DNA of 35,676 nt, taken from positions 1-35,676 of IMG/VR virus record IMGVR_UViG_3300045120_000076; one strand, 5' to 3'. Below are positions 1-35,676 of this stretch, one piece after another. Numbering within the stretch: the first letter of the stretch is position 1; each line of letters begins with the position of its first letter. This DNA comes from a virus. The notes below the pieces were generated by a model, which had not been told where the DNA came from, made no database searches, and saw nothing but the letters and a program-made list of their open reading frames with translations. The position numbers and the translations under genes are program-made.

Positions 1-1057
1 CCTGATTTGGACCGGCGTAGCCTCCTGCCCACTGGAATGCAACCAGATCACCCGGTTGGAGTTGATTGTAAGAGCCTACACGTACACCGGTCGTGGCCTG
101 TGCTCGTGCCTGTCGGGGCATAGTTATCCCCATTTGTGCATAGACCTGTTGCACAAGACCTGAGCAGTCCACACCAGACTTGAGTGAGTTTCCACCCCAC
201 ACATATGGTATGTTGAGCACTTGCTTACTGATCGACAGGGCTTGTGCTCTAGCAGCAGTAGTAGGAACACCTGAGAAAGACTGAGCCGAACCTATCTGAG
301 CCTGTCTTAATCCAGTAGCACTACCTGTGTTAGCTGCAAATTGTTGCTGTGGTGGCACAGATGTAGGTAAGAACTTACTGTAAGCACCTGTATTGTAAAC
401 AGTCCAGGCAGCTAAGCCCTGAGACTGGTAGATTTTATACGCAGCCTGAGCACTCTGTAATGGGTCACTAGGGTTACTCGGATACCATGAGTTCCCAGCA
501 TGTATAGAGTTGATCTGAAATAGGCCCCGATCAACACTGCCATTCTTGTTCTTGTCATTGACAGCAGTAGGGTTCCACCCTGATTCGGCTTTAGCTATAG
601 CCATCATAGTAGGAACCATTGACTCAGAGAAGCCTGCTGCTCTGATTACGTTGGCTACACCCTGAGCCCCACCAGCACCCCACATAGATGTAGAGTCACC
701 GCCATAGGCACCACCCGATAGCTGGCCGAACCCTGGAGCACCAGACATCCAGTCGTTCATGCTCTGGACAGAGGCATCCATAGCAGCCTGACGGTTAGCT
801 TCCCACGCTGCTGCCTGTTTAGCTGCTTCTCTGTCTTTGTTCTGCTGATCTACAGACATTGCAGCCTGGTTAGCCTGCACGCTGGATTGCTTAATCATCT
901 GGATAGAGTCGTTGTACGACTGGTATCCCTGATTAGCCTGCGGTGTAGTTATGTTAGTGGCACGCTGCTGCTCAGCCTCAGTTTGTACCCTGGTGTCATT
1001 AGCCTGATCCCACTTGAGCTTATCCTGATTGGGGTCTCTCAGGAGGGGTGCGGTCAT
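1..1057 (-). CDS. Virion-associated peptidoglycan hydrolase: lytic transglycosylase plus NlpC/P60 peptidase (3' end missing)
   Basis: Translated by hand from the minus strand; the ATG at 1057 overlaps the stop of the upstream gene as ATGA, and no stop occurs before the window edge, so the C-terminus is missing. After a Gln/Ala-rich N-terminus (to about residue 110) comes an SLT-type lytic transglycosylase region with AKAESGWNPTAVN (catalytic Glu about residue 158) followed by RGLFQIN. An NlpC/P60 domain follows, with SGVDCSGLVQQVY (catalytic Cys about residue 298) and LQPGDLVAF. Together these would cut both glycan strands and peptide stems. Its place as last gene of the virion operon, behind the giant internal protein, suggests an ejected or tail-tip lysin for DNA entry, doing the job of the transglycosylase in T7 gp16. 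It could also serve in lysis, since no separate endolysin is visible in this window. Confidence 0.9.
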   Translation of the reverse strand, partial: MTAPLLRDPNQDKLKWDQANDTRVQTEAEQQRATNITTPQANQGYQSYNDSIQMIKQSSVQANQAAMSVDQQNKDREAAKQAAAWEANRQAAMDASVQSMNDWMSGAPGFGQLSGGAYGGDSTSMWGAGGAQGVANVIRAAGFSESMVPTMMAIAKAESGWNPTAVNDKNKNGSVDRGLFQINSIHAGNSWYPSNPSDPLQSAQAAYKIYQSQGLAAWTVYNTGAYSKFLPTSVPPQQQFAANTGSATGLRQAQIGSAQSFSGVPTTAARAQALSISKQVLNIPYVWGGNSLKSGVDCSGLVQQVYAQMGITMPRQARAQATTGVRVGSYNQLQPGDLVAFQWAGGYAGPNQ

Positions 1058-4000
1058 TCAGTCAGGCCCCCTGTGGTTACACCAGGCAGTCCTATCTTGT
1101 CCTTACCTGCTTGGATGCGTTTCTTATTGATGATGTTCGGGTCCTTAGCCTCCTGGTAAGCCTGGTTCTGACCACGTGCGATGTTGTAGAAGCTCTGACG
1201 TTCGGTGTTCTGGTAGTTCAAGCCGAGCATGAAGTTCAACAGGTTCTGGTTAGCCAGGAAATCCTTCTCACCTGAAGCCTTAACACGCTGCCAGTCGAGA
1301 CCCTGACCAGATGCCAGCGATCCTATGCTGCCAGTAGTAGATAGCCCAGTGATGTTAGAGAACTGGTTGGCAAACGGTATAGCCTGATCCAACCACTCAC
1401 CCTTGTCTGGGATGAAGTGGTCAGGCTCCATCGGATGTGAGCCCTGGATCAGACCCCACGGCTTGGAGATGATGGGGTTTAGCATGTCAGCGATATGTGG
1501 TCCGACCTTGCCATTGAATATCTGACCAGCCGCTTCGACAGGGGAGCCGAAGTCGAACACACCTCCACCGCCACCATCGAGCCCCATAGGTCCAGTCAGG
1601 TTGTTACGGATGAAATCAGGGTACAGTGAGCCTGTGGGGAATGGGTCTTGCATACTATGTGGGTCCATACCCAGTGCCACCTGAAGGTTATAGGCAGCCT
1701 TAGGAACCTCCAGTGTCCTGGCAGGATGGGTCAGTGTGCTCATAAACAGGGTAGGCATGGCCTGTTTGAACCAGTTGTAGAACGGTATGATCCTGCGCAT
1801 GTACTTCTTCTCGAATGCAGTGAGTCCCTTCACGTCAGGATGGAACTTCTGCACCCTGTGAGTCAATCCTGTGAACATCTCTTCGACGGTATCGTACTGA
1901 GAGGCCACCTTTTTCTTGCCCATGAGGCCCAGTAGATGAGCCAGCCTGGTGTTATCAGACGATGCCTCTGTTACTTTACCCGCAGCCCTGACGATAACGT
2001 TTTTGTTCACTGCGTTAGCAGCCCGGGTGAGACCCTTAGCACCTGTGGTTTCCAGGATGTCCTCTGCTGCCTTGTAGTTCAGCAGCAATCCAGAACGGTG
2101 AGCGTACCAGTATACCTGATTGTTCGTCAGTGATACCGTCTTGCCGTTCTTCAGTGTGACAGTGATAGCCTTCCCCTTAGGAGTAGGCACGGTGTCACCC
2201 AGTAGTTCATTGAGTTTCTTGAAGTCACCCTTGAAATCACCAGCAGCCATCTGCACAGCAGCGGCTTTCTTATACCAGATAGGACTCTTCACACCGTCCA
2301 TAGAGTTCATAATCACGTCACCAACACCATTTCTGATCTGGTGACCTGGCCTAATCACAGTGGTACTGGTCTTGTACATGGCTAGATACGGGTCCAGCCA
2401 CTCCTTGATGAGCCTGTTAGTGAAGCCAGTGTCCTTGTCAATCTCTCGTGAGTACCTAGCGATCCACTCAGCCTGCTCACGGTTGTAGTATAGATCAGTG
2501 TCGATCACGTGTGAAAGATCAGCAGTGCCCTGAGTGCGTGCAATCTTGACATCATTCGCACCCTTAGCTGCATGGCCGAACTCTTTAACGAAGTACCTAC
2601 CGACAGAAGCACGAGCAGCAAGCTCCATCTGAGTGTGCTGCATGTTGAGAAGGAACTTAACAGGGTCCTCAATGCCTGTCCATTCCCGCCACTGCTCTGG
2701 TACTTCAAGGGCATTGTCCTTAGCGCGGAAGCTATACGTGATACCATGACGGTGCATCACCTGATTGATAGTCTCAGGACTCAGATTGGCTCTGAACATC
2801 AGGGTATCACCCCATGAGTTCACACCTTTACTGTGCGACAGGACGTTCTCGAACATGCTCTCCAGTGCGTCATGTGCGGCAGCCTGCTCTACTGTCAAGC
2901 CAGCCTTCCCTGTCGAGTTCCTGAGCGCCTCAAACGCTACCTGTAGGTCAGGCAACTGGTGTGCCTTGGCTACTTGACCGGCCAGCTTAGCGTAGTCCTC
3001 TGCTACTGCACCAAAGTGTGAGAACGCAGCGCGGCCTACAGCCCATACCATACCCATCTTGTAGCCGCCAGCGATCTTAGATGCAATGCCATCGTACATC
3101 CTGCGCCACAATGTATCAGCAGTGACGCCTGCTAGTTCATTGATAGTGTCCACACCGGCAGCATTAGCAGTGGCATGAATCTGGTTAATCTGCGTAGTAG
3201 CATTACCCTGTGCTGCCTGCTGACGCTGCTTAGCGTTGTGCTGCTGCTGTGGCTGTACGTTGAGTTCCCGGCCCTGAGTATCAGTACCAGGAGATTGCTT
3301 ACCTGTGTTCCACTCTGCTGAATTGGCCTGCTGCTTACCGATGTCTTGGATGTGCTTAGCGTCAGCAATGTCCGCAGCATTCACACCTTGTAGATGGTCA
3401 GCCGCACGAGCCTGACCCACGAGGACAGCACGCGGACCACCACCAAGAGCGTCTACTGTCGTCTTAACATCCCTGTCTAGGTTAGCCAGTACCTCAGCCT
3501 TACCACCGATACCTACTCTCGTGCTCTTCATCGCCTCGTTAGCTTTATTCGCTACATGCTGAGCCGCTTTGTTACCAATACCAGCTTCACGTGTCTTGAG
3601 ACCGATTTCATTCTCTACTGATCTGGCCTTAAGTGCATCACGCTCATCCCAAAACGCCTTAGCAAACTTCGATGCAGTGCCGTCTGAGATAACACTCCTG
3701 GTGCCGTTAGCTTCATGGATGGCCTGCGCTATAGCAGCACGCCCAGCATTACCAGAAGTCATACCGGCATCAGCAAGCTCAATGGCTTTCACAGTAGCAG
3801 CCATCTGAGAGCTAATCGGGATACCACCAGTGACGAACTTACCCTCACCTACGGCACCCTGCACAGTATTGGGCTTCAAGCTGAACTGCATGGCTCTGGT
3901 CTTAACCGGACCCATCACTTCGTACATATCAATGGCGTGCATAGCATACACAGCATCACCATGTGACATCTCAGGATACCTGCCTACGGCAATGGCATCA

Positions 4001-6732
4001 TCCCTGGCCTGTCGGAGACTGGTCATCACATGTTCGATCTTAGCTGCCCGAGCAGCCTCTCCTGACATGCCTCTATGTACAGCTATGGCATCATCCATAG
4101 CATCTTTTACCTGACCCCACTGATCAGAAGTTTTGAGGACATCAGGAGCATTGGCCGGTCGTGGCCTGTATGCTACGTCAGTGGGGACAGCACCATTGGT
4201 AGCAGCAGTCGCAGAGGGGCTGAGTTCAGCACCAGTCTGATGTGCTGTATCATTGACGTGCTTCTCTGCGACAGAGCTAGGTGAAACTCCAGCATCTACA
4301 GCAGCCCTGTCGATTTCACCAGCACCGGTAGTGTTAGGCATGGACACCTGAGGTGTATCAGTATCCTTACCGAACATCTGCTCACGGACTATACGCCAAT
4401 CCTCACCTGACTTTTGTGCAGCGTTCTGGGCAGCGAGGTCCATCGCCTCACTGTCGGAAGCATCCAGATCGTTAGCGTAGTCTTTTATGTCCTCACGAGC
4501 TTGAGCCTGCTCAGGAGTGATAGTGCCGTGCTTGCCGACAGGGGTAGGATTAGTAATGTCAGGAGTGGGCTCAACAGGAGGCTTAGCAGTACCGCGCTTA
4601 GGAGTGACAGCCTGCCGGTTAGAGCCAAACATCTTGGCCCGCACGAGGTCAACAGGTTGCCTGATCTTAGCAGCCTGTGTCGCTGCCAATGTGTCCATGA
4701 TTTCTTCAGGGTCTTGACCTGTCTCTCTAGCCCTGGCGTTGACGACTTCATGTGCCTTCTGCTGATCGTCACTGAGCTTGGTGTACTTGTACAGCAGTCG
4801 GTCTACTTCTTCCTTAGTCTTACCCTCACGCTCAGTTATCACCATCTTATTATGAGCTTCTATCCAATTACCACCAAGCTCATGTCCCCGCATATATGGA
4901 TTTTCCGGGTTCAGATCATGCTCAGCGATCCTCGTAACCTTGGCAGCCGGTTGCTTAAAGCCAGTCTTTACAGGACCGAACAGTAATCTTTCAGTGTCAG
5001 CCCAAGCCTTCTCATCCTTCAGGACGTCCTTGACATAGACTCTGTTGCCTGAGCCATCAGCATAGGAGTAGGTGTCCTCAAGGTACTTGAACCGAGCATC
5101 TATCATAGCCTGCTCTACTGAGATACCTTTAGCTTTAGCTGTCGCTTCTACTGCCCGCTTGTTTTTAAGCTGACCCTCAGTGAACTGACCATACGGTGTA
5201 TCTACGATCTTAGGTGCAGCAGGCTTGTAATCCAGGGGTGCAAGAGTACCCTTGTTCGCTGAAAGCCTTGCACCTGCCTTCTGGATAGCCTTATCAGGAG
5301 GATCACCATTATAGGTCTTACGAGTGTACCGCTTTACCGCTTCATTGAATGTGATAGGCTCCAGCTTGTTAGGCTCTCTGCCCTCTTTCTCAGCAAGTGC
5401 AGCTTCCTTCTCAGTACGCCTCTTTAGATCATTCGCAATGTAGTCATCGACAAGTTTTCTGGATTCATCAACAGAGACTTCACGTGTCATACCCGCAACA
5501 GATGTAGGAACAGGGTGCAGTACAATAGGGGTAGCAGCAACGTGCTCAGCTACCGCATCATTGATAGCTGCGCTGTCTTGAGCTTTCTTCCGCTTGGCTA
5601 TCTCAGGGACTAGTTCAGGTGTAGGCTCAGTTACCTTGACATCAGCAGGTGATGGGGCTTCGTAAGGCTTGCCAGTGGTTATGTCTATCTGACCAGCAGC
5701 CGCACGTAGAGCATCTTCCCTATCTGCATTAGCCATACCCTGTGCGGTGACATCATCGTAGCCTTCAGCTACATAGTCCTCCATTGTCTTAAGCTCAGGA
5801 CGTGGCGGTGTAGCTGGGCCGACAGGAGGCATACCAGAGCCCGGAGTACCTGGGCGAGGGGGTACACCTGTACCTCCAGGGCCAGGCTTAGGTGCAGGGC
5901 CACCTGTCGGAACACGTCCGGGGCCGGGACCGGGGACGCCAGTTGGCCTAGGAGGCGTTACGTTCGGGCCGGGGACAACACCCGGTTGGGGAGCCCCAGT
6001 ACCTCCTGGGGCAAATGGCGGCGTCGTGGTTGCGCCTGTAAGGGCCGATCCGGTCGGGGGTGGGGTGGTTGGACCTCCCCCACCGCCAGGATGAGGACCG
6101 GTCGGGGCCGGTCCAGCGCCACCTGAAGGTGCAGGTCCAGCACCAGGAGTATGTGCAGCGATAGCGTCAGCAGCAGTAGGAGCGTTAGGTATGTTGTGAC
6201 CCAGTGCCCTATCAACCTGAGTCTCATTCTTAGCGAGGAACTTCCCTACCTTACCTACGCCTCTACCCAAGAATCCCAACGGGATAACATTCAGGGGATC
6301 AAGAATAATATCCCCAGCGAGGCCACCTACACCCTTAACCCAATCAGGGATTTCAACGTTCGGGTCCTCGTCGTCAGCCTTCTGTAGGACATCCCTATAG
6401 GTGGTCTTGTCGATACCCGACAGGCCAGCCCACAGTGATTCAAGTGGGTTGTCAGTGTTGGGGTCCTTATCTATGGTGTCCTTGACGAGATTAGCCGTTG
6501 AGTACAGTGGCCGGGATAGGACATCCAGTACCCTACTGATGATGCCAGGATCAGCCTCACGCTCAGCTACTCCAATAGGTGAACCCACACCATTTGCAGG
6601 ATCGTAGAACTTACCCCGACCACGAGGCTGAGGACCATAACCACCACCTGTACCGGGCGCGGGTCCAGCCTGAGCCGTAGCAATCCTACGAATCAGTTCA
6701 TTCAGAGCATCATAGCTCTGCTGGTCAGCCAT
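1054..6732 (-). CDS. Giant internal virion protein (1892 residues)
   Basis: The largest gene in the window. It has a charged N-terminus and a Pro/Gly-rich low-complexity stretch at about residues 195-312. A long Ala/Lys/Glu-rich region with helical character follows. Near the C-terminus is the segment YMRRIIPFYNWFKQAMPTLF, a basic-aromatic motif I associate with large internal or ejection proteins of podoviruses. No enzymatic motif was recognised. Size, position at the end of the structural operon and coupling by ATGA overlap to a peptidoglycan hydrolase suggest a T7 gp15/gp16-like ejection protein in which the lytic activity sits in a separate gene. The start ATG overlaps the upstream stop by 8 bases and has a weak Shine-Dalgarno, consistent with translational coupling. 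Virion role is fairly sure; the exact function is inferred. Confidence 0.8.
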   Translation of the reverse strand: MADQQSYDALNELIRRIATAQAGPAPGTGGGYGPQPRGRGKFYDPANGVGSPIGVAEREADPGIISRVLDVLSRPLYSTANLVKDTIDKDPNTDNPLESLWAGLSGIDKTTYRDVLQKADDEDPNVEIPDWVKGVGGLAGDIILDPLNVIPLGFLGRGVGKVGKFLAKNETQVDRALGHNIPNAPTAADAIAAHTPGAGPAPSGGAGPAPTGPHPGGGGGPTTPPPTGSALTGATTTPPFAPGGTGAPQPGVVPGPNVTPPRPTGVPGPGPGRVPTGGPAPKPGPGGTGVPPRPGTPGSGMPPVGPATPPRPELKTMEDYVAEGYDDVTAQGMANADREDALRAAAGQIDITTGKPYEAPSPADVKVTEPTPELVPEIAKRKKAQDSAAINDAVAEHVAATPIVLHPVPTSVAGMTREVSVDESRKLVDDYIANDLKRRTEKEAALAEKEGREPNKLEPITFNEAVKRYTRKTYNGDPPDKAIQKAGARLSANKGTLAPLDYKPAAPKIVDTPYGQFTEGQLKNKRAVEATAKAKGISVEQAMIDARFKYLEDTYSYADGSGNRVYVKDVLKDEKAWADTERLLFGPVKTGFKQPAAKVTRIAEHDLNPENPYMRGHELGGNWIEAHNKMVITEREGKTKEEVDRLLYKYTKLSDDQQKAHEVVNARARETGQDPEEIMDTLAATQAAKIRQPVDLVRAKMFGSNRQAVTPKRGTAKPPVEPTPDITNPTPVGKHGTITPEQAQAREDIKDYANDLDASDSEAMDLAAQNAAQKSGEDWRIVREQMFGKDTDTPQVSMPNTTGAGEIDRAAVDAGVSPSSVAEKHVNDTAHQTGAELSPSATAATNGAVPTDVAYRPRPANAPDVLKTSDQWGQVKDAMDDAIAVHRGMSGEAARAAKIEHVMTSLRQARDDAIAVGRYPEMSHGDAVYAMHAIDMYEVMGPVKTRAMQFSLKPNTVQGAVGEGKFVTGGIPISSQMAATVKAIELADAGMTSGNAGRAAIAQAIHEANGTRSVISDGTASKFAKAFWDERDALKARSVENEIGLKTREAGIGNKAAQHVANKANEAMKSTRVGIGGKAEVLANLDRDVKTTVDALGGGPRAVLVGQARAADHLQGVNAADIADAKHIQDIGKQQANSAEWNTGKQSPGTDTQGRELNVQPQQQHNAKQRQQAAQGNATTQINQIHATANAAGVDTINELAGVTADTLWRRMYDGIASKIAGGYKMGMVWAVGRAAFSHFGAVAEDYAKLAGQVAKAHQLPDLQVAFEALRNSTGKAGLTVEQAAAHDALESMFENVLSHSKGVNSWGDTLMFRANLSPETINQVMHRHGITYSFRAKDNALEVPEQWREWTGIEDPVKFLLNMQHTQMELAARASVGRYFVKEFGHAAKGANDVKIARTQGTADLSHVIDTDLYYNREQAEWIARYSREIDKDTGFTNRLIKEWLDPYLAMYKTSTTVIRPGHQIRNGVGDVIMNSMDGVKSPIWYKKAAAVQMAAGDFKGDFKKLNELLGDTVPTPKGKAITVTLKNGKTVSLTNNQVYWYAHRSGLLLNYKAAEDILETTGAKGLTRAANAVNKNVIVRAAGKVTEASSDNTRLAHLLGLMGKKKVASQYDTVEEMFTGLTHRVQKFHPDVKGLTAFEKKYMRRIIPFYNWFKQAMPTLFMSTLTHPARTLEVPKAAYNLQVALGMDPHSMQDPFPTGSLYPDFIRNNLTGPMGLDGGGGGVFDFGSPVEAAGQIFNGKVGPHIADMLNPIISKPWGLIQGSHPMEPDHFIPDKGEWLDQAIPFANQFSNITGLSTTGSIGSLASGQGLDWQRVKASGEKDFLANQNLLNFMLGLNYQNTERQSFYNIARGQNQAYQEAKDPNIINKKRIQAGKDKIGLPGVTTGGLTE

Positions 6733-8368
6733 TGCTCAGTGCCCAGGCAGCATAAGACTTAGCCATCTGGTTAACAGTAGATGGATCATATCCCTGCAAG
6801 GCACCCATCTTAGCAAGTTCATTGGAGAATCTCTCAGCGCGAGCCTGGATAGATTCATCAGCATTCACATTGTCGGGATTATTGATCCAGTCCTGGTAAG
6901 CAGATTGGATACTTGCATAGGCATCCGACGCAGATTGCTTGTCCAAGCCGTCACGTACTGCGATACCGATGGTCTGACTCGGGCCAGGGTAGTCAGCCAT
7001 ATTGAATGTACTACCAGCCTTAGCAGCATTAGCCATCTGAGCCTGCACTGAATCATAAATCTTACCGTACACAGCGAACTGGTTACCCCAGTTCTGCTGG
7101 TTCTCAGCTTCACGTGTGTCGTGACGACCCTTGGCACGGTCATACGCACCAACCTTGGCACCGTAGTTGGCCTGCTGCACACCAAACTCATTGCCCTGGT
7201 TAGCAATCTGGCCCTGCAAGTCCCTGTCGGCTAACTTCTGTGCTAGGTCCACAGTCATGCGGCCCTGTTCACCCTGAGCATTGGCCTTGTTCAAGTCAAT
7301 GTTAGCCAAGATGTTACCAAGGTTCTGATCGTTCTCCTGATGTGCTACAAGACCCTGATGCTGCATGATGTTACCGTACTGAGCAGCATTAGTACCCGCA
7401 GCCTGCTTATCTGAGGCGATACCGCTCTGTTCCTGTGCTGTCGCTTCTCTGATCTGCTGCTGCTCAGCAGCACCCTGATCTACACCCTGCTGAAGGTTAG
7501 GCATGATGGCCTGATCCATACCTACAGCCTTCAGTGTCTGAGCCAGGCCAGCATTAGCAGATTGTGTGCTCTCCTGTACGTCAGATATACGTTGCTGACC
7601 TTGTTCCTGAGCCCTACCTGTGGCTTCATCATGCTGGTTAGCTACATCTGCCGCCTTAGTTGCTATATCTTTGACGAACTGTGAGTACATACCATCTAGT
7701 TGCTGGTTGCTGACGTTGCCCTGCTGCTTGGCATTTGTGATTGCCATGTCGAATCCGGCCAGATACGGCGCGAAAGCATCCATCGCAATCTTCTTAGCTG
7801 GCTCTGTAAAGTCCCGCATCTCGACAGGGGTGCTCTGGAAATTAAATGCACCAGGGTCATCGGGCATACCATACGGATTCCCAGGGTACTTGAGGATGTC
7901 AGTAAGGATCGAGTTAGGATCATACGGTGTGTTCGAGCCCGCACCTAAAGAGGGACTGAATACACTTCCACCAGCACCAGCACCGTAGTTACTAGGCGTG
8001 AAACCACCTGCTGGCCTAACACCAGTACTGGTTGTAGTATTAGTCTGCTTTCCATACACAGGAGGCTTAGTACCTGTACCTAGTACTGGAGCAGAGCCCG
8101 GTACGTTAGCACTAATAGTACCCCTACCTGGCACATTAACACTTCTACCAGGCACTGGTACTTGAGAAGATGGAGCACTTGCTCTAGGACTTCCTAGATT
8201 TATCTCATCAGGATTAAGAGAACCTGCCTTACTTCGCACAGCACCTAATACCATACCTATGCGTTGCTTAAGTACAGCCGTACTCTTACCCTGTTCATAC
8301 TGATTGATGGCATTGTCACCAAAACCTGCTGTATGAAGGGCGTCTCTTTCTTGCTTAGTAAGGGCCAT
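6725..8368 (-). CDS. Probable internal virion protein, Gln/Ala-rich
   Basis: A 547-residue protein with no family I can name. The N-terminal 30 residues contain a possible helical motif (ERDALHTAGFGDNAINQYEQ). Residues about 60-160 are Gly/Ser/Pro-rich and probably disordered. The rest is Gln/Ala/Asn-rich, helix-forming and may be coiled coil. The composition resembles T7 gp14/gp15-class ejection proteins. It lies between the tail genes and the giant virion protein. The ATG has a good AGGAG Shine-Dalgarno 5-6 bases upstream and follows the previous stop by 7 bases. Structural role is inferred from context and composition only. Confidence 0.7.
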   Translation of the reverse strand: MALTKQERDALHTAGFGDNAINQYEQGKSTAVLKQRIGMVLGAVRSKAGSLNPDEINLGSPRASAPSSQVPVPGRSVNVPGRGTISANVPGSAPVLGTGTKPPVYGKQTNTTTSTGVRPAGGFTPSNYGAGAGGSVFSPSLGAGSNTPYDPNSILTDILKYPGNPYGMPDDPGAFNFQSTPVEMRDFTEPAKKIAMDAFAPYLAGFDMAITNAKQQGNVSNQQLDGMYSQFVKDIATKAADVANQHDEATGRAQEQGQQRISDVQESTQSANAGLAQTLKAVGMDQAIMPNLQQGVDQGAAEQQQIREATAQEQSGIASDKQAAGTNAAQYGNIMQHQGLVAHQENDQNLGNILANIDLNKANAQGEQGRMTVDLAQKLADRDLQGQIANQGNEFGVQQANYGAKVGAYDRAKGRHDTREAENQQNWGNQFAVYGKIYDSVQAQMANAAKAGSTFNMADYPGPSQTIGIAVRDGLDKQSASDAYASIQSAYQDWINNPDNVNADESIQARAERFSNELAKMGALQGYDPSTVNQMAKSYAAWALSNG

Positions 8369-8375
8369 GACGCTC

Positions 8376-9323
8376 CTACCTCGTTATCGTAGTAGCGCCG
8401 GTGCCCTGCGGAATCCTCGACGGATCAAGGCCATACTTAGCTGCGATCCGGTTCACTGCATCTCGTAGGGCGTTCCTGTCGGCAACACTCTGTTGGCCCT
8501 GGAAAGCCTGAAGTGCTCTATTCTGTGTGGTGACATCTTCTGACTGGCCTTGGTTCAGTGAATCTAGTCTGTTCTGGAAGTCACGTGCGATCTGACCCTG
8601 AGCCTGACCAAAGTACCCTGAGGTCAACGCGCCACGTCCAGCGAAGTCATCAATGTTCAGCGCGAGAGCATCACCATAGGCACTGTTTGACCTGTCCAGG
8701 TCCCATGCCTCGTCACCTGTCGCACCAGGAGCCACCTGAAGTGCCTTGTTATTACCCTGAAGCGGCTTGAATCCTAGCCGGGACTTAGCATCCTTCCACT
8801 GACGGTCATACTGTGCGCGAGCATCACTCTGCGCGCCCTTGAACTGCGTCATGGTAGTAGCTAAGTCATTGATGGTCTGGTTGTATAGATCATCAGCCTT
8901 AGCGTCAGGTACTTCAATGGTCTCAGGTACAGGGGGAGCCGCAGCCATCGCAGCGAAACCACCACCACCACCCCCGCCACCAGCACCACCACCTGCTCCA
9001 CCACCAGCACCACCGCCAGCACCCCCACCTCCTGCACCGCCACCACCACCACCAGTATTAGCTCTATCGCCACCTACTGTTGAACCAGCTTTTACAGGTG
9101 TATTCCCAAACTGAGCATACGGTCGTGGAGCCACATACTTAGTAAGTGGGGATGGAGCAGGTGTGCCTTTCCTATTGGGTTGTTTTGCACCTGGAGCTAA
9201 TGGAGTCCGCGCAGCATTGATAGCAATAGCAGCAGGAGTAGCAGCAGGGGGCGCGGGAGCCACATAACCCACACGTGTAGGAGCCTTACCACCAGCGAAG
9301 TCTGCGTTTCTTACGACAGGCAT
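8376..9323 (-). CDS. Probable virion protein with a polyglycine linker
   Basis: A 315-residue protein in three parts. The basic, Pro/Ala-rich N-terminus covers about residues 1-90. A near-pure glycine tract with scattered alanines covers about residues 92-124. The helical C-terminal part contains YNQTINDLATTMTQFKGAQS and several Gln-rich segments. No enzyme motif is seen. The Gly tract is encoded by imperfect GGT/GGC/GGG repeats (about 8958-9053), so it could change length by slippage. ATG preceded by AGGCGG. The neighbours are all virion genes, so an internal or tail component is likely. The antisense Pro-rich reading of the tract is an artefact. Confidence 0.65.
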   Translation of the reverse strand: MPVVRNADFAGGKAPTRVGYVAPAPPAATPAAIAINAARTPLAPGAKQPNRKGTPAPSPLTKYVAPRPYAQFGNTPVKAGSTVGGDRANTGGGGGGAGGGGAGGGAGGGAGGGAGGGGGGGGFAAMAAAPPVPETIEVPDAKADDLYNQTINDLATTMTQFKGAQSDARAQYDRQWKDAKSRLGFKPLQGNNKALQVAPGATGDEAWDLDRSNSAYGDALALNIDDFAGRGALTSGYFGQAQGQIARDFQNRLDSLNQGQSEDVTTQNRALQAFQGQQSVADRNALRDAVNRIAAKYGLDPSRIPQGTGATTITR

Positions 9324-9325
9324 AG

Positions 9326-9406
9326 CTACCGCCTAAGGAATAGAACGCCTGCCGTCACACAGACGACAACGAGTATGATGATGAGTAGGATCATGGTAGT
9401 GTCCAT
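9326..9406 (-). CDS. 26-residue single-pass membrane peptide
   Basis: Found by reading the 84 bases between two larger genes. ATG at 9406, TAG at 9326-9328, 26 residues. It begins MDTTMILLIIILVVVCVTAG and ends in FLRR: one uninterrupted hydrophobic helix with a positive C-terminal tail, so by the positive-inside rule the N-terminus would face outside. A Shine-Dalgarno-like GGGCGG lies just upstream, inside the end of the previous gene, and only one base separates the two genes. Its stop precedes the next ATG by two bases. The fit between two tightly packed genes and the clear transmembrane composition argue that it is real. It could be a holin/pinholin-like or ejection-associated peptide; nothing in the sequence decides which. 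Confidence 0.65.
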   Translation of the reverse strand: MDTTMILLIIILVVVCVTAGVLFLRR

Positions 9407-9407
9407 G

Positions 9408-11750: not shown

Positions 11751-11753
11751 GCG

Positions 11754-12392: not shown

Positions 12393-12393
12393 G

Positions 12394-14775: not shown

Positions 14776-14791
14776 GTAGTCCCCCTACTGA

Positions 14792-14837
14792 GAAGGCCAT
14801 GCTTAAACGTGGGGCATCGCGCTTAAGTATGACCTTC
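14792..14837 (-). promoter_or_regulatory. Strong intergenic hairpin downstream of the capsid gene
   Basis: Arms 14792-14808 and 14821-14837 pair over 17 positions (14 Watson-Crick, two G-T, one A-C mismatch) around a 12-base loop. It lies 13 bases after the capsid stop on the transcribed strand. No T-run follows, so it may be a partial terminator, an RNase processing point or a 3' stabiliser that raises capsid mRNA relative to the downstream genes. Confidence 0.75.
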
Positions 14838-14850
14838 CCATTAGGGGAAC

Positions 14851-16089: not shown

Positions 16090-16091
16090 AG

Positions 16092-16994: not shown

Positions 16995-17006
16995 GTTACT
17001 TCCTTA

Positions 17007-19652: not shown

Positions 19653-19659
19653 AGGGTCT

Positions 19660-26156: not shown

Positions 26157-26216
26157 TTCATGCGCCGACAGGGCCGATGGTCACATGCCGCTAAGTCCAC
26201 TCTTCGCTACGTCACT

Positions 26217-27751: not shown

Positions 27752-28348
27752 TTGCCCACCTTCAGCACAGCCGAGCGCGTAGTGATGGCGATGCGATACC
27801 TGCATCAGCATCCCGATCAGATACACACCTTTGACTCCCTGTCGAAAGCCATAGGCTGCCCGACAACTAGTCTCAGGAAAACTATCAATGTGGACTATCC
27901 AGCTACCTTCACCGTAAAGACAGGTGACATCTGGTTAGCTGATCCGATTGTGTGGCCCTTAGGTAGGCCCTTCACATTAGAGCCTGAGGACAACTCCCCC
28001 ATCGCTTCACATGAGATGAAGCCGCCTGACATGAACGACAGGCTACTGGAGATAGTTGAGAAGTTCGCTTCACCTCAAGCCCACTCAACTAAGTCCACAG
28101 CTTCCAAGACACCTGAGGATAAGTTCCTGGTCGAGAAGATGACTCAGCAGTACTACGATGAGGCAATGGCTCGTATCCCTCAAAATATGAAGGATCAGTA
28201 CACTCAGTTCCATGTGGACCGGGGAGATAGAACTAAATCCAAGTTCAGATATGATGCGATGAACTTTCACAAAGCAATGCTCATCAACATTATGTCGGCC
28301 ACAGCAGATGACCCAGCAGCTAACATTAAGGACAAGTACATCAAGTGA
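27752..28348 (+). CDS. Winged-helix-like protein of unknown function
   Basis: 198 residues with a TTG start chosen because AAAGGA lies eight bases upstream and no ATG is near. Residues about 5-60 (AERVVMAMRYLHQHPDQIHT, FDSLSKAIGCPTTSLRKTI) resemble a small winged-helix/MarR-type DNA-binding domain followed by a beta wing (FTVKTGDIWLAD). The C-terminal half is helical and charged. Perhaps a regulator of the early region. First gene of a chain in which nearly every junction overlaps. Confidence 0.65.
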   Translation: MPTFSTAERVVMAMRYLHQHPDQIHTFDSLSKAIGCPTTSLRKTINVDYPATFTVKTGDIWLADPIVWPLGRPFTLEPEDNSPIASHEMKPPDMNDRLLEIVEKFASPQAHSTKSTASKTPEDKFLVEKMTQQYYDEAMARIPQNMKDQYTQFHVDRGDRTKSKFRYDAMNFHKAMLINIMSATADDPAANIKDKYIK

Positions 28349-28587
28349 GCACACCGTACTGGTCAGACTTGAACCAGCACCTACTCATCGCACAAAAGGC
28401 ACAAGACCTACTCATCACTGACAAGGATAACAACAGTGGTTTGAATGATGATGAAAAGACCGACCTCAACTTCATCAGATATTGGCACATCCGTAGAGCG
28501 CAGCACATGATTAACGAGATTGACCCCCGAGGTTCGACAGGTGAGACAACACGTAAGCCATCTCTCGACATTGAAAGTGACTACTGA
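28345..28587 (+). CDS. Small helical protein, early region
   Basis: 80 residues. GTG start overlaps the previous stop (GTGA). Helical, charged, with two amphipathic stretches (HLLIAQKAQDLLITDKDNN; LNFIRYWHIRRAQHMINE). No family recognised; possibly a small inhibitor or adaptor protein. Its C-terminal tail is disordered. Confidence 0.6.
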   Translation: MSTPYWSDLNQHLLIAQKAQDLLITDKDNNSGLNDDEKTDLNFIRYWHIRRAQHMINEIDPRGSTGETTRKPSLDIESDY

Positions 28588-28926: not shown

Positions 28927-29301
28927 TTGCGTAGAGCAGACAACACATCCCAACTCACTGAAGGTGCCATCCACTGTAGAGGTTTGGGCCACGTATGGGT
29001 CAGCTACACAGCTACCTACCAAAACATACCGAGACTTAAGTTCAAGGGCTACAATGTCACAGTGATCTGCGACAAGTGCGGCACACTCAAGCACTTCATG
29101 TTATCCATGCGGGGTGACTACTACCCAGCTACCTATACCTATGCTGACAACTACCTTCTGCCTGTCGGATACAAAGTAACGCGCGAGGACAAAGGCAACT
29201 TCAAGCTCGAAGCCCTGGCTGAGGCACTGGGTCAGGTGGTAATCCCTGTCGAAGATACTACAGTCACACCGATCTCACGATCACGAAAGAAACAAGCATG
29301 A
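28927..29301 (+). CDS. Zinc-binding protein of an actinophage-type family
   Basis: 124 residues; TTG start with AGGA 12 bases upstream. The spaced motif CRGLGHVWVSY...VICDKCGTLKHFMLSMRGDY...YTYADNYLLP matches a pattern I know from small Cys/His proteins of actinobacteriophages (C-x3-G-H-x-W, then C-x2-C-G-T, then a Y-x-Y-x-G-Y stretch). Likely a zinc-binding DNA- or RNA-associated protein. The function is unknown in that family. It supports an actinobacterial host. Confidence 0.7.
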   Translation: MRRADNTSQLTEGAIHCRGLGHVWVSYTATYQNIPRLKFKGYNVTVICDKCGTLKHFMLSMRGDYYPATYTYADNYLLPVGYKVTREDKGNFKLEALAEALGQVVIPVEDTTVTPISRSRKKQA

Positions 29302-29671: not shown

Positions 29672-29847
29672 CACAAGAACGTGACCTCAGGATCAAGCAG
29701 TACCTTGAGACCGCAGCACTATGTCGTGAACTGTCACTCAGCCAGACATCCTCATATGAGGGTTCCGACCTGGCTATCCGTCTTGGTAAGATGTGCTTCT
29801 ACTACATGAAGGTAGCAGCCAACCTATTCGACAGGGGTGACCAGTGA
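29668..29847 (+). CDS. 59-residue helical protein, early region
   Basis: Read by hand in the gap after the preceding gene; the ATG forms ATGA with its stop. Sequence starts MTQERDLRIKQYLETAALCR and ends YYMKVAANLFDRGDQ. Two helices with aromatic and Cys residues (LGKMCFYYMKVAANLF). The ATGA junction and the ribosome-binding site for the next gene inside its end support a true gene. Its last codons hold one copy of the dispersed CGACAGGG motif. Confidence 0.65.
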   Translation: MTQERDLRIKQYLETAALCRELSLSQTSSYEGSDLAIRLGKMCFYYMKVAANLFDRGDQ

Positions 29848-30441: not shown

Positions 30442-30475
30442 CATGTCTAATGTCTACTCTACTAGGAAACCACTA

Positions 30476-32425
30476 ATGTCTGATGAACCTATCGTTGACC
30501 TCACATCACTTATCGCTCAGCTAGACCAAGCTAAGGCTGCTCATGCTGAACACACAGCTGAAGTCGAAGCTGCTAAGATTCAGCTTGAACTTGACATGGC
30601 TCAGGTAGATGAGGCTGAGCGTGTCCTGTCGGAGAAACGTAAGGCGCGCGACAGTACTGATGCTAAGAGGCGCTTAGCCAAAGCACAAGCACTGGCTGAC
30701 TACAACACAGTAGGTAACCTGGAGCGGCTCATCGCACAGGAGCAGGCCAATGAACTCAGTGCTAGGCGGGCACTTGAGAAGCGTCAACTCATTGAGGACT
30801 TGACAGCCAATGCTGAGTGGCGCACTAAGCTCAAGCCACATCAGCTTGATGGTGCAGTCTATCTTGCCAGCGCCCAAAGGGCTGTGTGCGCCGATGAGAT
30901 GGGCGTAGGTAAGACACCTCAGATCATCGTGACAATGGACATCCTAGAGGCACTAGGTGACGGCGGCCGTAAGGTGCTGTGCCTGTTACCACAGGAAATG
31001 GTGTCAGTGTTCATGGAGGAACTCAGGATATGGGCACCCGACAGGGCTGCCATCAAGTTGTCCGGTCTTGGCGGGCTGGCTAATACGCTCGAAGCCTTTG
31101 AGATGTACAGTAAGATGCTGCCTGAAGAGGGCACCTATGTCTGCGGCTATGAACTATACCGCAGGACTGCTAGCAAGGCACTTCAGGACATGGCTGTGCT
31201 TCAGCAGTTCGACACGGTGATATGTGACGAAGCGCATAACATCAAAGAGACCGACAACGCAGGCTTCAAGTCAGTGATGAAGCTGGTCAAGGCTTACAAC
31301 ACGTGCCCTGTCGAAGGATGTGGCAGGGTCACCATGTCACTCAGGCCAGACAATGACCGTGTTAACTACAGGATGGGACTGTGCATCATGCACGGTGAAG
31401 TTGAATCCATCCAGTCAGTGAAGAACGTCTATCCTATGACCGGCACGCCGATCATTAACCGACCCGACGAAATCTATCCGCTGCTGCACTTGGTTAACAG
31501 TGCTGCGTTCCCTAACAAGAACAAGTTCGGATATGACTACTGCACTAAGGGCTGGGACAATAAGCTCAAGTGGAAAGAAGGAGGCCAAGCCAGACTAGCA
31601 TCTAAAATCAAGGGCTCGTACATCCAGCGGTCCAGGACAGATGCAGGTATCATCCTGCCACCACAGCACATCACCACACATACCATTGAGTTCGACAGGG
31701 TGAAGTACCAGAAGCAGGCTTACCTGTTGCAGATGCTCAAAGAGCATTCACAAATCCTCATTGAAGAGGGTAAAGCAGCAGACATGAAGTCTATCCTTGC
31801 TCTCATCACACGCATGAGGCAGGCTACCTGTTGGCCGGGAGGTATTTGGCTCGATCTACCAGACCCGCAGAATCCTTGGACTGCACCTCCTGTTAGGACA
31901 CATGTCGGCGCACTCTATGAAGAGTCAGCCAAGATGGATAGGGCAGTAGAACTCGCAGATGAGTTTGTGGATGCAGGACAGCGTTACATCCTGTTCTCTC
32001 AGTTCAAGGAAGCCATTGATGAGTTCCAACGTAGGCGCGGAGATAAGGTAGTCGCTTACCATGGCGGTACACCTGAGAAGGTACGTGAGGAAATCAAACG
32101 TAACTTCAATCGTCTCTACGGTGAAGCCCCGAAATGGGAGGGCTTAGCAGCCCATTACCACACTGGTGGCATTGGTCTTACACTTACCGCAGCTACTCAG
32201 ATCATCGTACTAGATGAAGAGTGGAGCCCAGCTATGAACGCTCAGGCTTATGCACGTATCAATCGTATGGGGCAATCTGAGGAAACCGGAGTTCACATCT
32301 TACATCTGGAGAACAGTATCGACCAATGGCTGGCCGATATCATCGTGGAGAAGCGCAAAATTGTGGACGGTTTCGAAATGGAAATCACCTTCGCTCAACT
32401 CGCAGATATCTTCAATCAACTCTAA
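30476..32425 (+). CDS. SNF2/helicase superfamily 2 ATPase
   Basis: 649 residues from ATG 30476, chosen over an in-frame ATG at 30443 because the promoter's start point lies beyond the latter and AGGA precedes the former. Residues about 10-100 are coiled coil. Walker A DEMGVGKT lies at about 140-147, DEAH box CDEAHNIK about 250-257, motif III MTGTP about 325-330, and C-terminal lobe with TGGIGLTLTAATQIIV and motif VI ARINRMGQS about 592-600. Between the DEAH box and motif III is an insert with Cys/His (CPVEGCGRV, CIMHG) that may bind zinc. SNF2-type phage helicases are found with replication and recombination genes and may remodel forks or strip proteins from DNA. Confidence 0.9.
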   Translation: MSDEPIVDLTSLIAQLDQAKAAHAEHTAEVEAAKIQLELDMAQVDEAERVLSEKRKARDSTDAKRRLAKAQALADYNTVGNLERLIAQEQANELSARRALEKRQLIEDLTANAEWRTKLKPHQLDGAVYLASAQRAVCADEMGVGKTPQIIVTMDILEALGDGGRKVLCLLPQEMVSVFMEELRIWAPDRAAIKLSGLGGLANTLEAFEMYSKMLPEEGTYVCGYELYRRTASKALQDMAVLQQFDTVICDEAHNIKETDNAGFKSVMKLVKAYNTCPVEGCGRVTMSLRPDNDRVNYRMGLCIMHGEVESIQSVKNVYPMTGTPIINRPDEIYPLLHLVNSAAFPNKNKFGYDYCTKGWDNKLKWKEGGQARLASKIKGSYIQRSRTDAGIILPPQHITTHTIEFDRVKYQKQAYLLQMLKEHSQILIEEGKAADMKSILALITRMRQATCWPGGIWLDLPDPQNPWTAPPVRTHVGALYEESAKMDRAVELADEFVDAGQRYILFSQFKEAIDEFQRRRGDKVVAYHGGTPEKVREEIKRNFNRLYGEAPKWEGLAAHYHTGGIGLTLTAATQIIVLDEEWSPAMNAQAYARINRMGQSEETGVHILHLENSIDQWLADIIVEKRKIVDGFEMEITFAQLADIFNQL

Positions 32426-32458: not shown

Positions 32459-32983
32459 ATGCAACGTGTCATCATCCAAAATCTCTGCGACAGATGTTAT
32501 GACGAATCCGCACTAGAAACAGAAGCCTCGTTCATCATCAAAGCTACCATCAACGACACATCAGTCGAGATGGAACTGTGCGAGGATCACATAGATGCCC
32601 TGTCGGTGCGTGAGGTCAGCATGTACGGCCGACCACCGGAGAAGAAGCCCAGTAGGTTACGGGATCAGGCTCTGACCGTACCTCGACAGGGCAACAAGAA
32701 AAAGACAATCGCACCTGAGAATGCTGTGGCTAAGAGTTCTTCAGGTCACTACGTCGGACGTGAACTCATCGAGTGTGAATGGTGTGGATTCTCCTATGCT
32801 GGTGAGTCGGGCCTGTCCCTACACACCAAGAGGATGCACCCTGACCAGTGGGTTCCCAAGAATCCCGATAAGAACTTCAAGGAAAAGCAGAAGCGTGCCA
32901 TACACAAAGAGCATATGCGGGAGACTGCTGCTATCCAAGCCGCAGCACGTAAGGTCATAGTGACCGAACATGAGCGGGTGTAG
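32459..32983 (+). CDS. Zinc-finger protein
   Basis: 174 residues. The N-terminal half has CDRC and LCEDH about 35 residues apart (NLCDRCYDES...MELCEDHIDAL), a treble-clef-like zinc site reminiscent of regulatory proteins that also contain a helical region. A classical C2H2 finger follows at about residues 103-125 (ECEWCGFSYAGESGLSLHTK, RMH), then a Lys-rich helical tail. C2H2 fingers are uncommon in phages. It probably binds DNA and may serve the replication genes around it. Regulator or recombination accessory are both possible. Confidence 0.75.
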   Translation: MQRVIIQNLCDRCYDESALETEASFIIKATINDTSVEMELCEDHIDALSVREVSMYGRPPEKKPSRLRDQALTVPRQGNKKKTIAPENAVAKSSSGHYVGRELIECEWCGFSYAGESGLSLHTKRMHPDQWVPKNPDKNFKEKQKRAIHKEHMRETAAIQAAARKVIVTEHERV

Positions 32984-33580: not shown

Positions 33581-34219
33581 GTGACAGTGTGCATCTCATG
33601 TCTCGATGAAATGTGTTTCATCTGCGAAGCCCCTAATGAAGAGGGCGAAGCCTGCTGCTGTAAGGGCACCTATGGCCGGGTATCTATGGCTGGCCTTGTG
33701 CTCCCGACTCAACTAACTGAAACGACAGGCAATCCAGTAGGCCGTCCCAGGATGAACGGTGAGGACATGAAGTCCCCACTCACAGCAGGTAGGGCCAGAG
33801 CAGAGGACATAGCTCCCCTGTCGGAAGATATGATCTGCGAATGGGCCATGTTGCTTAATGCTGGTGGAGGTATCTCACCTATCGTGGGCTGTGAGGGTAA
33901 CGTCGCCACGGCACGTCACCATGGCCCTGACAAGAGTACCTTAAATAACAACCCTGGCGTGAACCTTCACAGGATATGCGCCAAGTGTCACAATAGATGG
34001 CACTACAGGAATGATGCTTACTATGGTAAGAGGCCGGTCGATAACAGTGATTATCTCCCCCTTACTGAACATGGTGAGTGTCACCCACATGATCGTATTA
34101 CACAAGCCACACCTCTCGACGTACAATCTAGCAACATTTATTGGGGACAACCAGTACAAGGTCGCAAGCCATACCGTCATTGGGAGAAGCAAGATGAGCA
34201 AGCCACCGCCAGTAGGTGA
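33581..34219 (+). CDS. HNH endonuclease
   Basis: 212 residues from GTG 33581, eight bases after AAGG. N-terminal Cys cluster (CISCLDEMCFICEAP, CCCKG) likely binds zinc. The HNH core lies at about residues 105-145: TARHHGPDKSTLNNN, GVNLHRICAKCHNRWHYRND, with the first catalytic His near 113-114 and a CxxCH zinc-knuckle following. Such enzymes nick or cut DNA. Here it may be a free-standing homing nuclease or a packaging/recombination nuclease. It is far from the terminase genes, so homing or recombination is more likely. Confidence 0.82.
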   Translation: MTVCISCLDEMCFICEAPNEEGEACCCKGTYGRVSMAGLVLPTQLTETTGNPVGRPRMNGEDMKSPLTAGRARAEDIAPLSEDMICEWAMLLNAGGGISPIVGCEGNVATARHHGPDKSTLNNNPGVNLHRICAKCHNRWHYRNDAYYGKRPVDNSDYLPLTEHGECHPHDRITQATPLDVQSSNIYWGQPVQGRKPYRHWEKQDEQATASR

Positions 34220-34455: not shown

Positions 34456-35319
34456 ATGTCATTCATGTCTGCTTCACACAGTGAGATCGACACCTACAAC
34501 GAGTGTGAACGTAAGCACTATTACCGCTACGGTAAGGGTCTTGAGTCCAAGACGGATCAGGATGCTCTTGTCAGGGGTAACGTCGTTCACAAGGTACTCA
34601 GTGAGTACTACCTGCTCCGTAAGCTTGACGCCTCACATGAGGAAGCGATGGAGCACGCTATCCCTATGCTCAGTACAGCGATGGCTGAGTACAATCCCTT
34701 TGATCCTGACGATATGATGTTCAAGATCAATAATCTGCTCTTCTGGTACTTCAAGTGTTACGCTGATGACACGCTGAAGGTGCTCGAAGTTGAGGTCAGC
34801 TACAAGGCTCAGCTTACCGATGACTTTGTATTACCAGTGGTGATCGACTTGATTGCCGAGATACGCGGCTATGGCATCGGTATCATCGACCACAAGGTGT
34901 GCTACAACTTCTTCAATGTGGATAAGCTGGACATGAGCCCTCAGTTGCCCCGGTATATGGCTGCTTCGACGGCCTTAGGCATCCATGTGGACTTCGTTAT
35001 GTACAACGAAATCAGGCACCAGAATACTAAGGAGAACGCTGCTGATCCTATGACCCGCTTCAGGCGCACTCAGGTGCCTCTGACTCCCGACAGGGTGGTC
35101 AACACCATGAGGGATCACCTACTGGCAGCACGTCGGATCGACCAATTCAAGGCTAAGGGCCTAGTAGGGTGGGAAGGTAGCATCCTACGGAACCCATCAG
35201 CATGTCAGTACTGCAACATGAAAGACTTGTGCGACGCTGACCTCAACAACAGAGACGCAGAACTCACCGAACAGGCATTCTACATCCCCCGTAAGCACCG
35301 TAGGAGTACCAGTGTATGA
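34456..35319 (+). CDS. Cas4/AddB-like PD-(D/E)XK nuclease with Fe-S cysteines
   Basis: 287 residues. Start SHSEIDTYNECERKHYYRY is the typical Cas4/RecB-type opening with Cys17. GNVVHKVL contains the conserved His about residue 45. The core site DLIAEIRGYGIGIIDHK carries the metal-binding Asp and Lys about residues 133 and 145-147. QLPRYMAAS matches motif QxxxY. Three Cys at about 250, 253 and 259 (CQYCNMKDLC) with Cys17 make the four ligands of the Fe-S cluster in Cas4/AddB. Such nucleases make single-strand ends for recombination. Together with the following Walker ATPase it suggests a single-strand annealing system. No cas1/cas2 or array is near, so it is not a CRISPR component. Confidence 0.88.
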   Translation: MSFMSASHSEIDTYNECERKHYYRYGKGLESKTDQDALVRGNVVHKVLSEYYLLRKLDASHEEAMEHAIPMLSTAMAEYNPFDPDDMMFKINNLLFWYFKCYADDTLKVLEVEVSYKAQLTDDFVLPVVIDLIAEIRGYGIGIIDHKVCYNFFNVDKLDMSPQLPRYMAASTALGIHVDFVMYNEIRHQNTKENAADPMTRFRRTQVPLTPDRVVNTMRDHLLAARRIDQFKAKGLVGWEGSILRNPSACQYCNMKDLCDADLNNRDAELTEQAFYIPRKHRRSTSV

Positions 35320-35545
35320 CGCTGATGTAGATATCATAGCAGCCATAATTAACCGTGAAGGTGGAGAGCCTGGTAACAGTATTCATGGTTGGAGATGTGA
35401 GTATCCCGAGAGATATGGGCCTTGTGACTGTGTAAGAACCATAGCCGAAGAGATTGTCAAAACATTTAAGGGGACTTCAAGTGACCGACCCAGTGTCTCA
35501 GGAATACCTGAACAGACTCCGAGCATCTATGGAGAAGCTGGCTGA
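35312..35545 (+). CDS. Small Cys-containing protein between nuclease and ATPase
   Basis: 77 residues; GTG start with AGGAG five bases upstream, overlapping the previous gene by eight bases. Contains WRCEYPERYGPCDC, three Cys that may bind zinc, then a helix (VRTIAEEIVKTF). The last 22 codons overlap the start of the next gene in a different frame. No family recognised. Confidence 0.6.
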   Translation: MYDADVDIIAAIINREGGEPGNSIHGWRCEYPERYGPCDCVRTIAEEIVKTFKGTSSDRPSVSGIPEQTPSIYGEAG

Positions 35546-35676
35546 CACTCAGCCTAGCTTCAAGGGGATGATCTACGGTACATCGGGTGTAGGTAAAACA
35601 GTCACTGCGATGATGCTTGCTCAGGAGATTACCCCTGTCGGCAGGAGCATTCACTACATCGACACGGCTCAAGGAT
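35481..35676 (+). CDS. Sak4-like RecA-fold ATPase, N-terminal part
   Basis: Only the first 65 codons are in the window; the gene continues beyond the right edge. GTG start with AAGGGGA six bases upstream. The sequence has a short helical N-terminus (YLNRLRASMEKLADTQ), then FKGMIYGTSGVGKTVTAMML, with Walker A GTSGVGKT at residues 33-40, and HYIDTAQG, the strand after it. This layout is typical of Sak4-type phage recombinases and related P-loop ATPases. Sak4 assists annealing with a single-strand binding protein. The overlap with the preceding gene (65 bases) is long but the ribosome-binding site is strong. Confidence 0.75.
   Translation, partial: MTDPVSQEYLNRLRASMEKLADTQPSFKGMIYGTSGVGKTVTAMMLAQEITPVGRSIHYIDTAQG

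Follow-up and report, generated by a model that had tools for sequence, protein, structure and literature searches.

Lagging-strand primer starts are usually viewed as loosely set by very short sites. PrimPols, members of the archaeo-eukaryotic primase (AEP) superfamily, read short GTG-containing template motifs, including the GTG site of pRN1 ORF904 (PMC8718748), while in the plasmid RSF1010 the template site GTG of RepB', at nt 31-33 of ssiA, has been proposed as the start (PMC4434180). For NrS-1, template sites GTGG and GTGA are reported, primer synthesis beginning chiefly at the base immediately upstream (PMC8718748; PMC4434180). Here, we analyzed a stretch of viral DNA of 35,676 bases, IMG/VR record IMGVR_UViG_3300045120_000076 (hereafter the window, meaning the whole stretch), throughout which the 7-mer CGACAGG, with its complement CCTGTCG, recurs. 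With a probability of roughly 0.8, we propose that these words are sites at which a phage PrimPol-RepA primase-helicase recognises its template and starts primers, from which Okazaki fragments would be begun.

CGACAGG occurs 65 times in the window (38 copies on the + strand and 27 on the - strand), or once per 549 bp, against about 4.4 copies expected naively and 9.1 under a third-order Markov model (z 18.6), and it ranks first for over-representation among all 7-mers. The same letters reversed, without complementing, are found five times. Extensions of the word lead the 8-mers and 9-mers as well (CGACAGGG, 35 copies against 1.9 expected; CCGACAGGG, 18 against 0.5), and its one-mismatch variants stand at about background (CGACAGC, 2 against 7.4; TGACAGG, 5 against 14), which indicates that recognition of CGACAGG is sharp. 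Flanking preferences, for T at -2, C or T at -1 and G at +7, add little information outside the core. A sequence-only reading of this DNA had described a motif scattered over the whole window far above chance, and these counts bear it out; its figure of about 61 copies was right as to the excess, the recounted number being 65, and its consensus, YCGACAGGG, holds in the CGACAGG core, the full 9-mer being present at just 33 of the 65 sites.

Sixty of the sites (92%) lie in coding DNA, in both senses (34 antisense, 26 sense) and several frames, as that reading had also stated, in a window that is 90% coding. Shuffling synonymous codons within the window genes left 7.4 +/- 2.5 copies (at most 15 in 300 shuffles) against 61 real ones, so that neither codon bias nor protein sequence accounts for CGACAGG, and this candidate cause was ruled out, in agreement with the earlier view that codon bias is insufficient. 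None of the checks named at that time, namely a Markov control, a codon shuffle and a comparison with close relatives, refuted the enrichment. The longest stretch devoid of the word is 26172-27838, the same one that had been singled out before; a 294-aa protein with no PHROGs or Pfam match is encoded inside it, at 26332-27216. Separately, GGTGGTGG occurs 18 times in the window against 3.1 expected, with glycine-rich coding repeats (e.g. 8376-9323) as the probable source.

By its sequence, the window is a 35.7-kb podovirus fragment, with Arthrobacter phage Jasmine, itself a podovirus (PMC5513430), among its relatives. Its terminase and major head protein are nearest, at 36-45% identity, to those of Jasmine, Brad and Casserole (Arthrobacter), Cellulosimicrobium phage DS1, Microbacterium phage Shocker and the uncultured ctEqG8, and its portal is of the P22 type. 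The record is classed by IMG/VR as without end repeats, and a search of bacterial genomes with the window terminase found no relative that would point to a host.

Among relatives, the word persists and drifts. All 12 viral contigs with a terminase 60-81% identical carry CGACAGG above expectation, weakly in the shortest (L013, 5 against 1.4). Drifted words are found in G010 (GCGACAGGG / CGCGACAGGGG, with the 9-mer CCCTGTCGC present 50 times against 0.3 expected), in G012 (GCTACAGGG, 41 against 0.5), in G009 (GCTACAG), in Jasmine, Brad and Casserole (CCCACAG), in DS1 (GCGACAG) and in ctEqG8 (CCTACAGG). On the template strand these forms include TGTCG, TGTGGG and TGTAGC, their common form being 5'-TGT(C/G/A)-3' followed nearly always by G. 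Between relatives, 20 of the 97 covered site positions are intact, compared with 5.4 expected for composition-matched words and 11.3 for all 7-mers, and site density stays high and in the same range despite this positional turnover. Thus, selection acts mainly on having enough sites rather than on particular ones; positional conservation, looked for as a sign of fixed regulatory sites, was not found, most sites turning over.

Other enriched words were met along the way. In Shocker (L037), CCCTGTCG occurs 27 times against 3.8 expected, 21:6 toward the structural strand, while a second word, CTTTACAG (45 against 1.8; as CCTTTACAG, 38 against 0.7), shows the reverse strand bias and is more frequent toward the ends, and TACCCTAA occurs 15 times against <0.1 expected, its + copies all within the first eighth of the genome. 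Corynebacterium phage BFK20 (L095), which encodes the PrimPol protein gp43, has 78 copies of GCCGGGG/CCCCGGC against 11 expected, which may be its own priming word. Arthrobacter phage Galaxy (L176) carries CCCCGAGT along its genome, with 27 copies on one strand and 1 on the other.

The word appears to track the phage primase across hosts and phyla. In the window, transcription switches at about 25.2 kb, to the right of which stand an SNF2 helicase and a PD-(D/E)XK exonuclease, followed by the contig end; in relatives, the exonuclease is followed by an AAA ATPase, the PrimPol-RepA primase-helicase, DNA polymerase A (PolA) and a RuvC-like resolvase. The primase-helicase, encoded by gene 39 in Jasmine, comprises a PrimPol-like N-terminal half fused to a RepA-type hexameric helicase. 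Profile searches matched it to RSF1010 RepA (1g8y, 8e-16), to the RSF1010 RepB' primase (3h20, 0.0074; 3h25, 0.029) and to the PrimPol domain 6zp9 (0.036), which ruled out a T7-gp4-type primase, the Pfam and PDB profiles being those of a RepA-type helicase with a PrimPol-like domain. Residues D94, H125 and D154 (numbering of the G008 protein), which match AEP motif positions, are invariant in a close set of nine. An AlphaFold model built on an alignment of only four sequences (predicted local distance difference test score, pLDDT, 55) had RepB' 3h20 as its top PDB fold match, with E 1.5e-3 and a low TM-score, and contains at residues 210-303 a fairly confident helical region, where other PrimPols hold the template-reading helix bundle. 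A query of viral contigs with the Shocker primase gave no match.

Three terminase relatives, G007, G011 and G013 (L059-L061, L070-L072 and L076-L078), lack PolA and encode a RepA-like helicase only, of 382 or 439 aa or as a fragment at the end of a contig. The PrimPol half was not found in any of them, apart from a weak partial match in G011; the helicase of G013 is cut by the contig end, yet its reading frame begins without the primase part. Their k-mer counts revealed no comparable word, and they presumably depend on host replication. When proteins were clustered by blastp, PolA and the PrimPol half were the only families present in all 15 motif-bearing and in none of the three motif-less phages. 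Another replisome part travelling with the PrimPol might then be what the word serves, either PolA, at handoff or pausing points, or the RepA-like helicase, at loading sites. The distribution of PolA, inseparable from that of the PrimPol half, speaks for the former; yet PrimPols do recognise template sequence, with the same GTG/GTGG core, whereas we know of no sequence-specific template recognition by family-A polymerases, and a RepA-like helicase is still encoded by phages that lack the word. We therefore hold a role for either protein to be very improbable.

The association extends to phages with unrelated heads. Muddy, Cozz, Nodigi, Koji, Serbin and PMBT14, chosen solely by homology of the primase-helicase, have different head genes and infect Mycobacterium, Gordonia, Microbacterium, Serratia or Pseudomonas. 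GTGTGG is the top 6-mer in all of them except Koji, where it ranks third and TGTGGCC is the top 7-mer; in a Desulfofustis phage the top 8-mer is CCTGTGGA. For six further phages, again selected by primase homology, we recorded before inspection the prediction of TGTN(G)-type words that would favour the structural sense strand and lie at even intervals. The word part held in five: GTGTGG ranked 2 of 2057 in P744 (32:17 on the structural strand, with uneven spacing), the predicted word ranked first in Shrew (35 sites, coefficient of variation (CV) of the spacing 0.35) and in JacoRen57 (50:24, CV 0.68), CCTGTG ranked second in Polewnik, and GTGTGC ranked first in Molivia (109 against 34). The spacing part held for Shrew and JacoRen57 only, among the words tested, which did not include the top words of Molivia and Polewnik.

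These comparisons bear on the host-driven analogues that the sequence-only reading had considered. In a Chi-like system, a host nuclease of the RecBCD/AddAB/AdnAB type would recognise the word and phage DNA would be protected; an asymmetric, strand-biased 7-8-mer that is dense and mainly coding fits this description, as do the exonuclease and helicase genes of the window. However, the words differ among phages that share the host Arthrobacter ATCC 21022 (CCCACAG, or TGTGGG, in Jasmine; GTGTGC in Molivia; neither in CapnMurica or Galaxy), and GTGTGG recurs in phages of hosts as different as Mycobacterium, Gordonia, Serratia, Pseudomonas, Curtobacterium and Yersinia. YCGACAGGG occurs once per ~27-85 kb in six actinobacterial genomes, taken from the candidate host phylum, against once per 1.1 kb in the window, and relatives without PrimPol and PolA lack the word. 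The proposed tie to the nuclease and ATPase genes at the right end is not supported either, since the Cas4-like exonuclease, SNF2 helicase and AAA ATPase families occur in relatives devoid of any such word. A Chi-like signal is accordingly very unlikely, and the host-driven readings as a group (Chi, uptake, host modification) were rejected on the shared-host phages and the six actinobacterial genomes. A mark for DNA uptake, packaging or modification, for which a short asymmetric word at high density would be suitable, is the least probable explanation that we weighed: the word is not dense in genomes of the candidate host phylum (actinobacterial, although the true host may differ), such words turn up in phages of podo-, sipho- and myovirus type whose head and packaging genes are unrelated, and no methyltransferase family tracks the word in the phyletic profile.

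Spacing and strand provide a further line of evidence. CGACAGG sites on the + strand of the window, the commoner one, lie about 1 kb apart and are more evenly spaced than random placement would give (CV 0.57 against 0.96, p<0.0005). On the commoner strand, the CV is 0.60 in Jasmine, 0.60 in Cozz, 0.55 in Nodigi, 0.51 in Muddy, 0.45 in Koji and 0.63 in PMBT14, even spacing over the range 0.35-0.68 being found in Shrew, Koji, Muddy, Nodigi, the window, Jasmine, Cozz, PMBT14 and JacoRen57. Where enough k-mers of comparable count were available as controls (Cozz, Nodigi, Muddy, Koji, PMBT14 and Serbin), their CV is about 1.0, and none is as even as the word in the first five of these; in the window, Jasmine and some others, with too few control words, evenness was judged by the random-placement test alone. 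The combined p for evenness over 18 genomes is ~3e-14, which is overstated because some of the genomes are related. Mean site intervals are ~0.8-1.7 kb in most genomes and larger in LS06.

In nearly every annotated phage examined, and in both transcription blocks, the template word is more frequent on the strand that is sense for the structural genes, the second word of Shocker being the exception. This majority, together with the even spacing, is as expected for a lagging-strand template with forks moving along with late transcription, a fork direction that we infer. GC skew was tried as an independent marker of fork direction and discarded as uninformative, its sign following transcription in several phages and being the same in both window blocks. 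The strongest local strand asymmetry in the window is at 21750-26172, where 11 consecutive CGACAGG sites are all + and none is -.

The same distribution weighs against a phage repressor or another regulatory or architectural protein that would silence or organise the genome from stoperator-like sites. Cluster A stoperators are repressor-bound, and their sequence likewise drifts between phage lineages. A top word of D29 (L177), CTGTCAAG, which we take to be its known stoperator, emerged from the same k-mer scan and serves as its positive control, so that by counts alone such sites resemble those described here, and the window encodes a helix-turn-helix (HTH) protein (Table 1). On the other hand, stoperators are mostly intergenic and oriented along transcription, whereas the sites here are overwhelmingly coding, in either sense, and evenly spaced; the D29 word is clustered (CV 1.55), and the blastp clustering found no HTH or other family beyond the PrimPol half and PolA that is in all carriers and absent from the motif-less phages. 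Stoperator-like sites, already seen as a poor fit in the sequence-only reading, are thus improbable, if somewhat less so than the readings dismissed above.

We return to priming by the phage's own primase. CGACAGG would mark a template site on the opposite strand, 5'-(C)CCTGTCG-3', for a putative PrimPol (AEP superfamily) domain fused to an RSF1010-RepA-like helicase. The words share the core T+GT(G/C/A), that is, T followed by GTGG, GTCG or GTAG, with GTG/GTGG in Jasmine, Muddy, Cozz, Serbin, PMBT14 and others, GTCG in the window, and GTA in ctEqG8, G009 and G012. The primase halves of G010 and G012, of the GTC and the GTA type, are 47% identical. The core resembles known PrimPol sites, and primer synthesis would, by analogy with them, begin opposite that T. 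From what is described for NrS-1 and pRN1, recognition of the GTCG half, in single-stranded DNA, would fall to the helix bundle, and the catalytic portion would begin the primer at the neighbouring T, giving 5'-AGGG... with A as the initiating base. Because the recognised word is long (7-10 nt), it would arise by chance too seldom, and selection would hence maintain a roughly even grid of about one site per kb on each strand, with higher density and regularity on the sense strand of the structural genes, each site starting one Okazaki fragment as the fork moves with late transcription. What the data establish is the enrichment, the drift between relatives, the dependence on the PrimPol/PolA module, the spacing and the strand bias, from which physical recognition, the primer start and the direction of the fork are inferred. 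The earlier suggestion of a phage-encoded DNA-binding function was, in this respect, sound as a possibility, though primase start sites were not among its analogues.

Several observations count against this proposal. The primase gene is not within the window fragment, although it is found in every longer motif-bearing relative, and the assignment to PrimPol is remote (Pfam E 0.002 for Jasmine, a weak model and a fold match at E 1.5e-3). Known PrimPol sites span 3-8 nt and are often loosely read, so that a sharp 7-mer with GTC or GTA is an extension of what they do. PolA and PrimPol co-occur perfectly and presence or absence alone cannot tell them apart, and the motif-less controls, all within the family, number three. 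Spacing is not even in Serbin, G008, G009, G003 and P744, the stronger, second word of Shocker, CTGTAAAG, has the opposite strand bias, and the word prediction did not hold in Lactococcus phage KSY1, a weak homologue noted in advance as a weak case.

More broadly, we consider it probable, with less assurance than for the window itself, that phages with PrimPol-RepA replisomes, whose hosts include Actinobacteria, Proteobacteria and a member of the Desulfobacterota, form a class in which long, lineage-specific priming words recur through the genome as a regular grid, with Okazaki starts set by sequence at ~1-kb intervals on a preferred strand, and that specificity and grid co-evolve (GTG, GTC, GTA). 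Our literature search found no account of genome-wide primase-site enrichment in phages, which is weak evidence, as subscription papers were mostly outside it; the components belong to a known kind, while, to judge from the searchable literature, neither the long word nor the genome-wide grid nor its drift has been described. If the proposal is true, many phage genomes hold a selected, evenly spaced set of priming sites, and primase specificity, lagging-strand identity and fork direction become readable from sequence, even for never-cultured phages. It would also offer a natural experiment in which a primase changes the sequence that it reads while dozens of genomic sites must follow. Jasmine and its Arthrobacter host are in culture, which makes a direct test feasible. 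All sites and the main features of the window are listed in Table 1.

Table 1. Positions of CGACAGG sites and selected genes in the window.
Feature	Position	Strand	Remark
CGACAGG site	109..115	-	
CGACAGG site	233..239	+	
CGACAGG site	1536..1542	+	
CGACAGG site	2836..2842	+	
CGACAGG site	2909..2915	-	
CGACAGG site	4008..4014	-	
CGACAGG site	4306..4312	-	
CGACAGG site	4536..4542	+	
CGACAGG site	5820..5826	+	
CGACAGG site	5903..5909	-	
CGACAGG site	6418..6424	+	
CGACAGG site	7223..7229	-	
CGACAGG site	7822..7828	+	
CGACAGG site	8475..8481	-	
CGACAGG site	8716..8722	-	
CGACAGG site	9314..9320	+	
CGACAGG site	9433..9439	-	
CGACAGG site	10046..10052	+	
CGACAGG site	10247..10253	-	
CGACAGG site	11168..11174	+	
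CGACAGG site	11434..11440	-	
CGACAGG site	11919..11925	-	
CGACAGG site	12451..12457	+	
CGACAGG site	12538..12544	-	
CGACAGG site	12876..12882	+	
CGACAGG site	13220..13226	+	
CGACAGG site	14227..14233	-	
CGACAGG site	14528..14534	+	
CGACAGG site	14893..14899	-	
CGACAGG site	15286..15292	+	
CGACAGG site	16201..16207	-	
CGACAGG site	17267..17273	+	
CGACAGG site	18125..18131	+	
CGACAGG site	18838..18844	+	
CGACAGG site	19367..19373	-	
CGACAGG site	20584..20590	-	
CGACAGG site	20828..20834	+	
CGACAGG site	21614..21620	-	
CGACAGG site	21750..21756	+	
CGACAGG site	22513..22519	+	
CGACAGG site	22594..22600	+	
CGACAGG site	23107..23113	+	
CGACAGG site	23172..23178	+	
CGACAGG site	23379..23385	+	
CGACAGG site	23920..23926	+	
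CGACAGG site	24386..24392	+	
CGACAGG site	24473..24479	+	
CGACAGG site	25962..25968	+	
CGACAGG site	26166..26172	+	
CGACAGG site	27838..27844	-	
CGACAGG site	28036..28042	+	
CGACAGG site	28535..28541	+	
CGACAGG site	29161..29167	-	
CGACAGG site	29245..29251	-	
CGACAGG site	29829..29835	+	
CGACAGG site	30625..30631	-	
CGACAGG site	31039..31045	+	
CGACAGG site	31307..31313	-	
CGACAGG site	31693..31699	+	
CGACAGG site	32599..32605	-	
CGACAGG site	32684..32690	+	
CGACAGG site	33723..33729	+	
CGACAGG site	33817..33823	-	
CGACAGG site	35088..35094	+	
CGACAGG site	35634..35640	-	
Structural (late) gene block	1054..25109	-	sense strand (-) richer in template word CCTGTCG, 27 vs 18
HTH protein	24636-25109		
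SNF2-family helicase, replication/recombination block	30443..32425	+	
PD-(D/E)XK (RecB/Cas4-like) exonuclease	34456..35319	+	last recognisable replication-block gene before contig end

Set beside the described systems, the arrangement shares with the cluster A stoperators of D29 and L5 an asymmetric word repeated genome-wide and found by the same counts; the stoperators differ in being clustered (the D29 word) and repressor-bound. T7 gp4 shares lagging-strand priming at GTC-containing sites (5'-GTC-3'; PMC11109968) but is an unrelated TOPRIM-type primase, whose 3-5 nt sites show hardly any enrichment in the genome of T7 (GGGTC, 94 against 74). pRN1 ORF904 belongs to the same superfamily and combines the same GTG-type core with helix-bundle recognition, while differing as the protein of an archaeal plasmid with another helicase and a 3-nt site. 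The NrS-1 enzyme, which reads 5'-GTGG/GTGA-3' and 5'-TTTGGTTA-3', is also a phage PrimPol, and its GTGG core is that of the TGTGG-type phages; the accessible portion of its account describes no genome-wide site enrichment, and the window's core is GTCG, in a longer and sharper word. RSF1010, with RepB', ssiA-ssiB and RepA, matches in the profiles of both proteins, in the top fold match and in the template GTG proposed as the start; on the plasmid each strand carries a single 40-nt hairpin site that serves to start the leading strand, whereas here there are dozens of short sites, and in these phages primase and helicase are fused.

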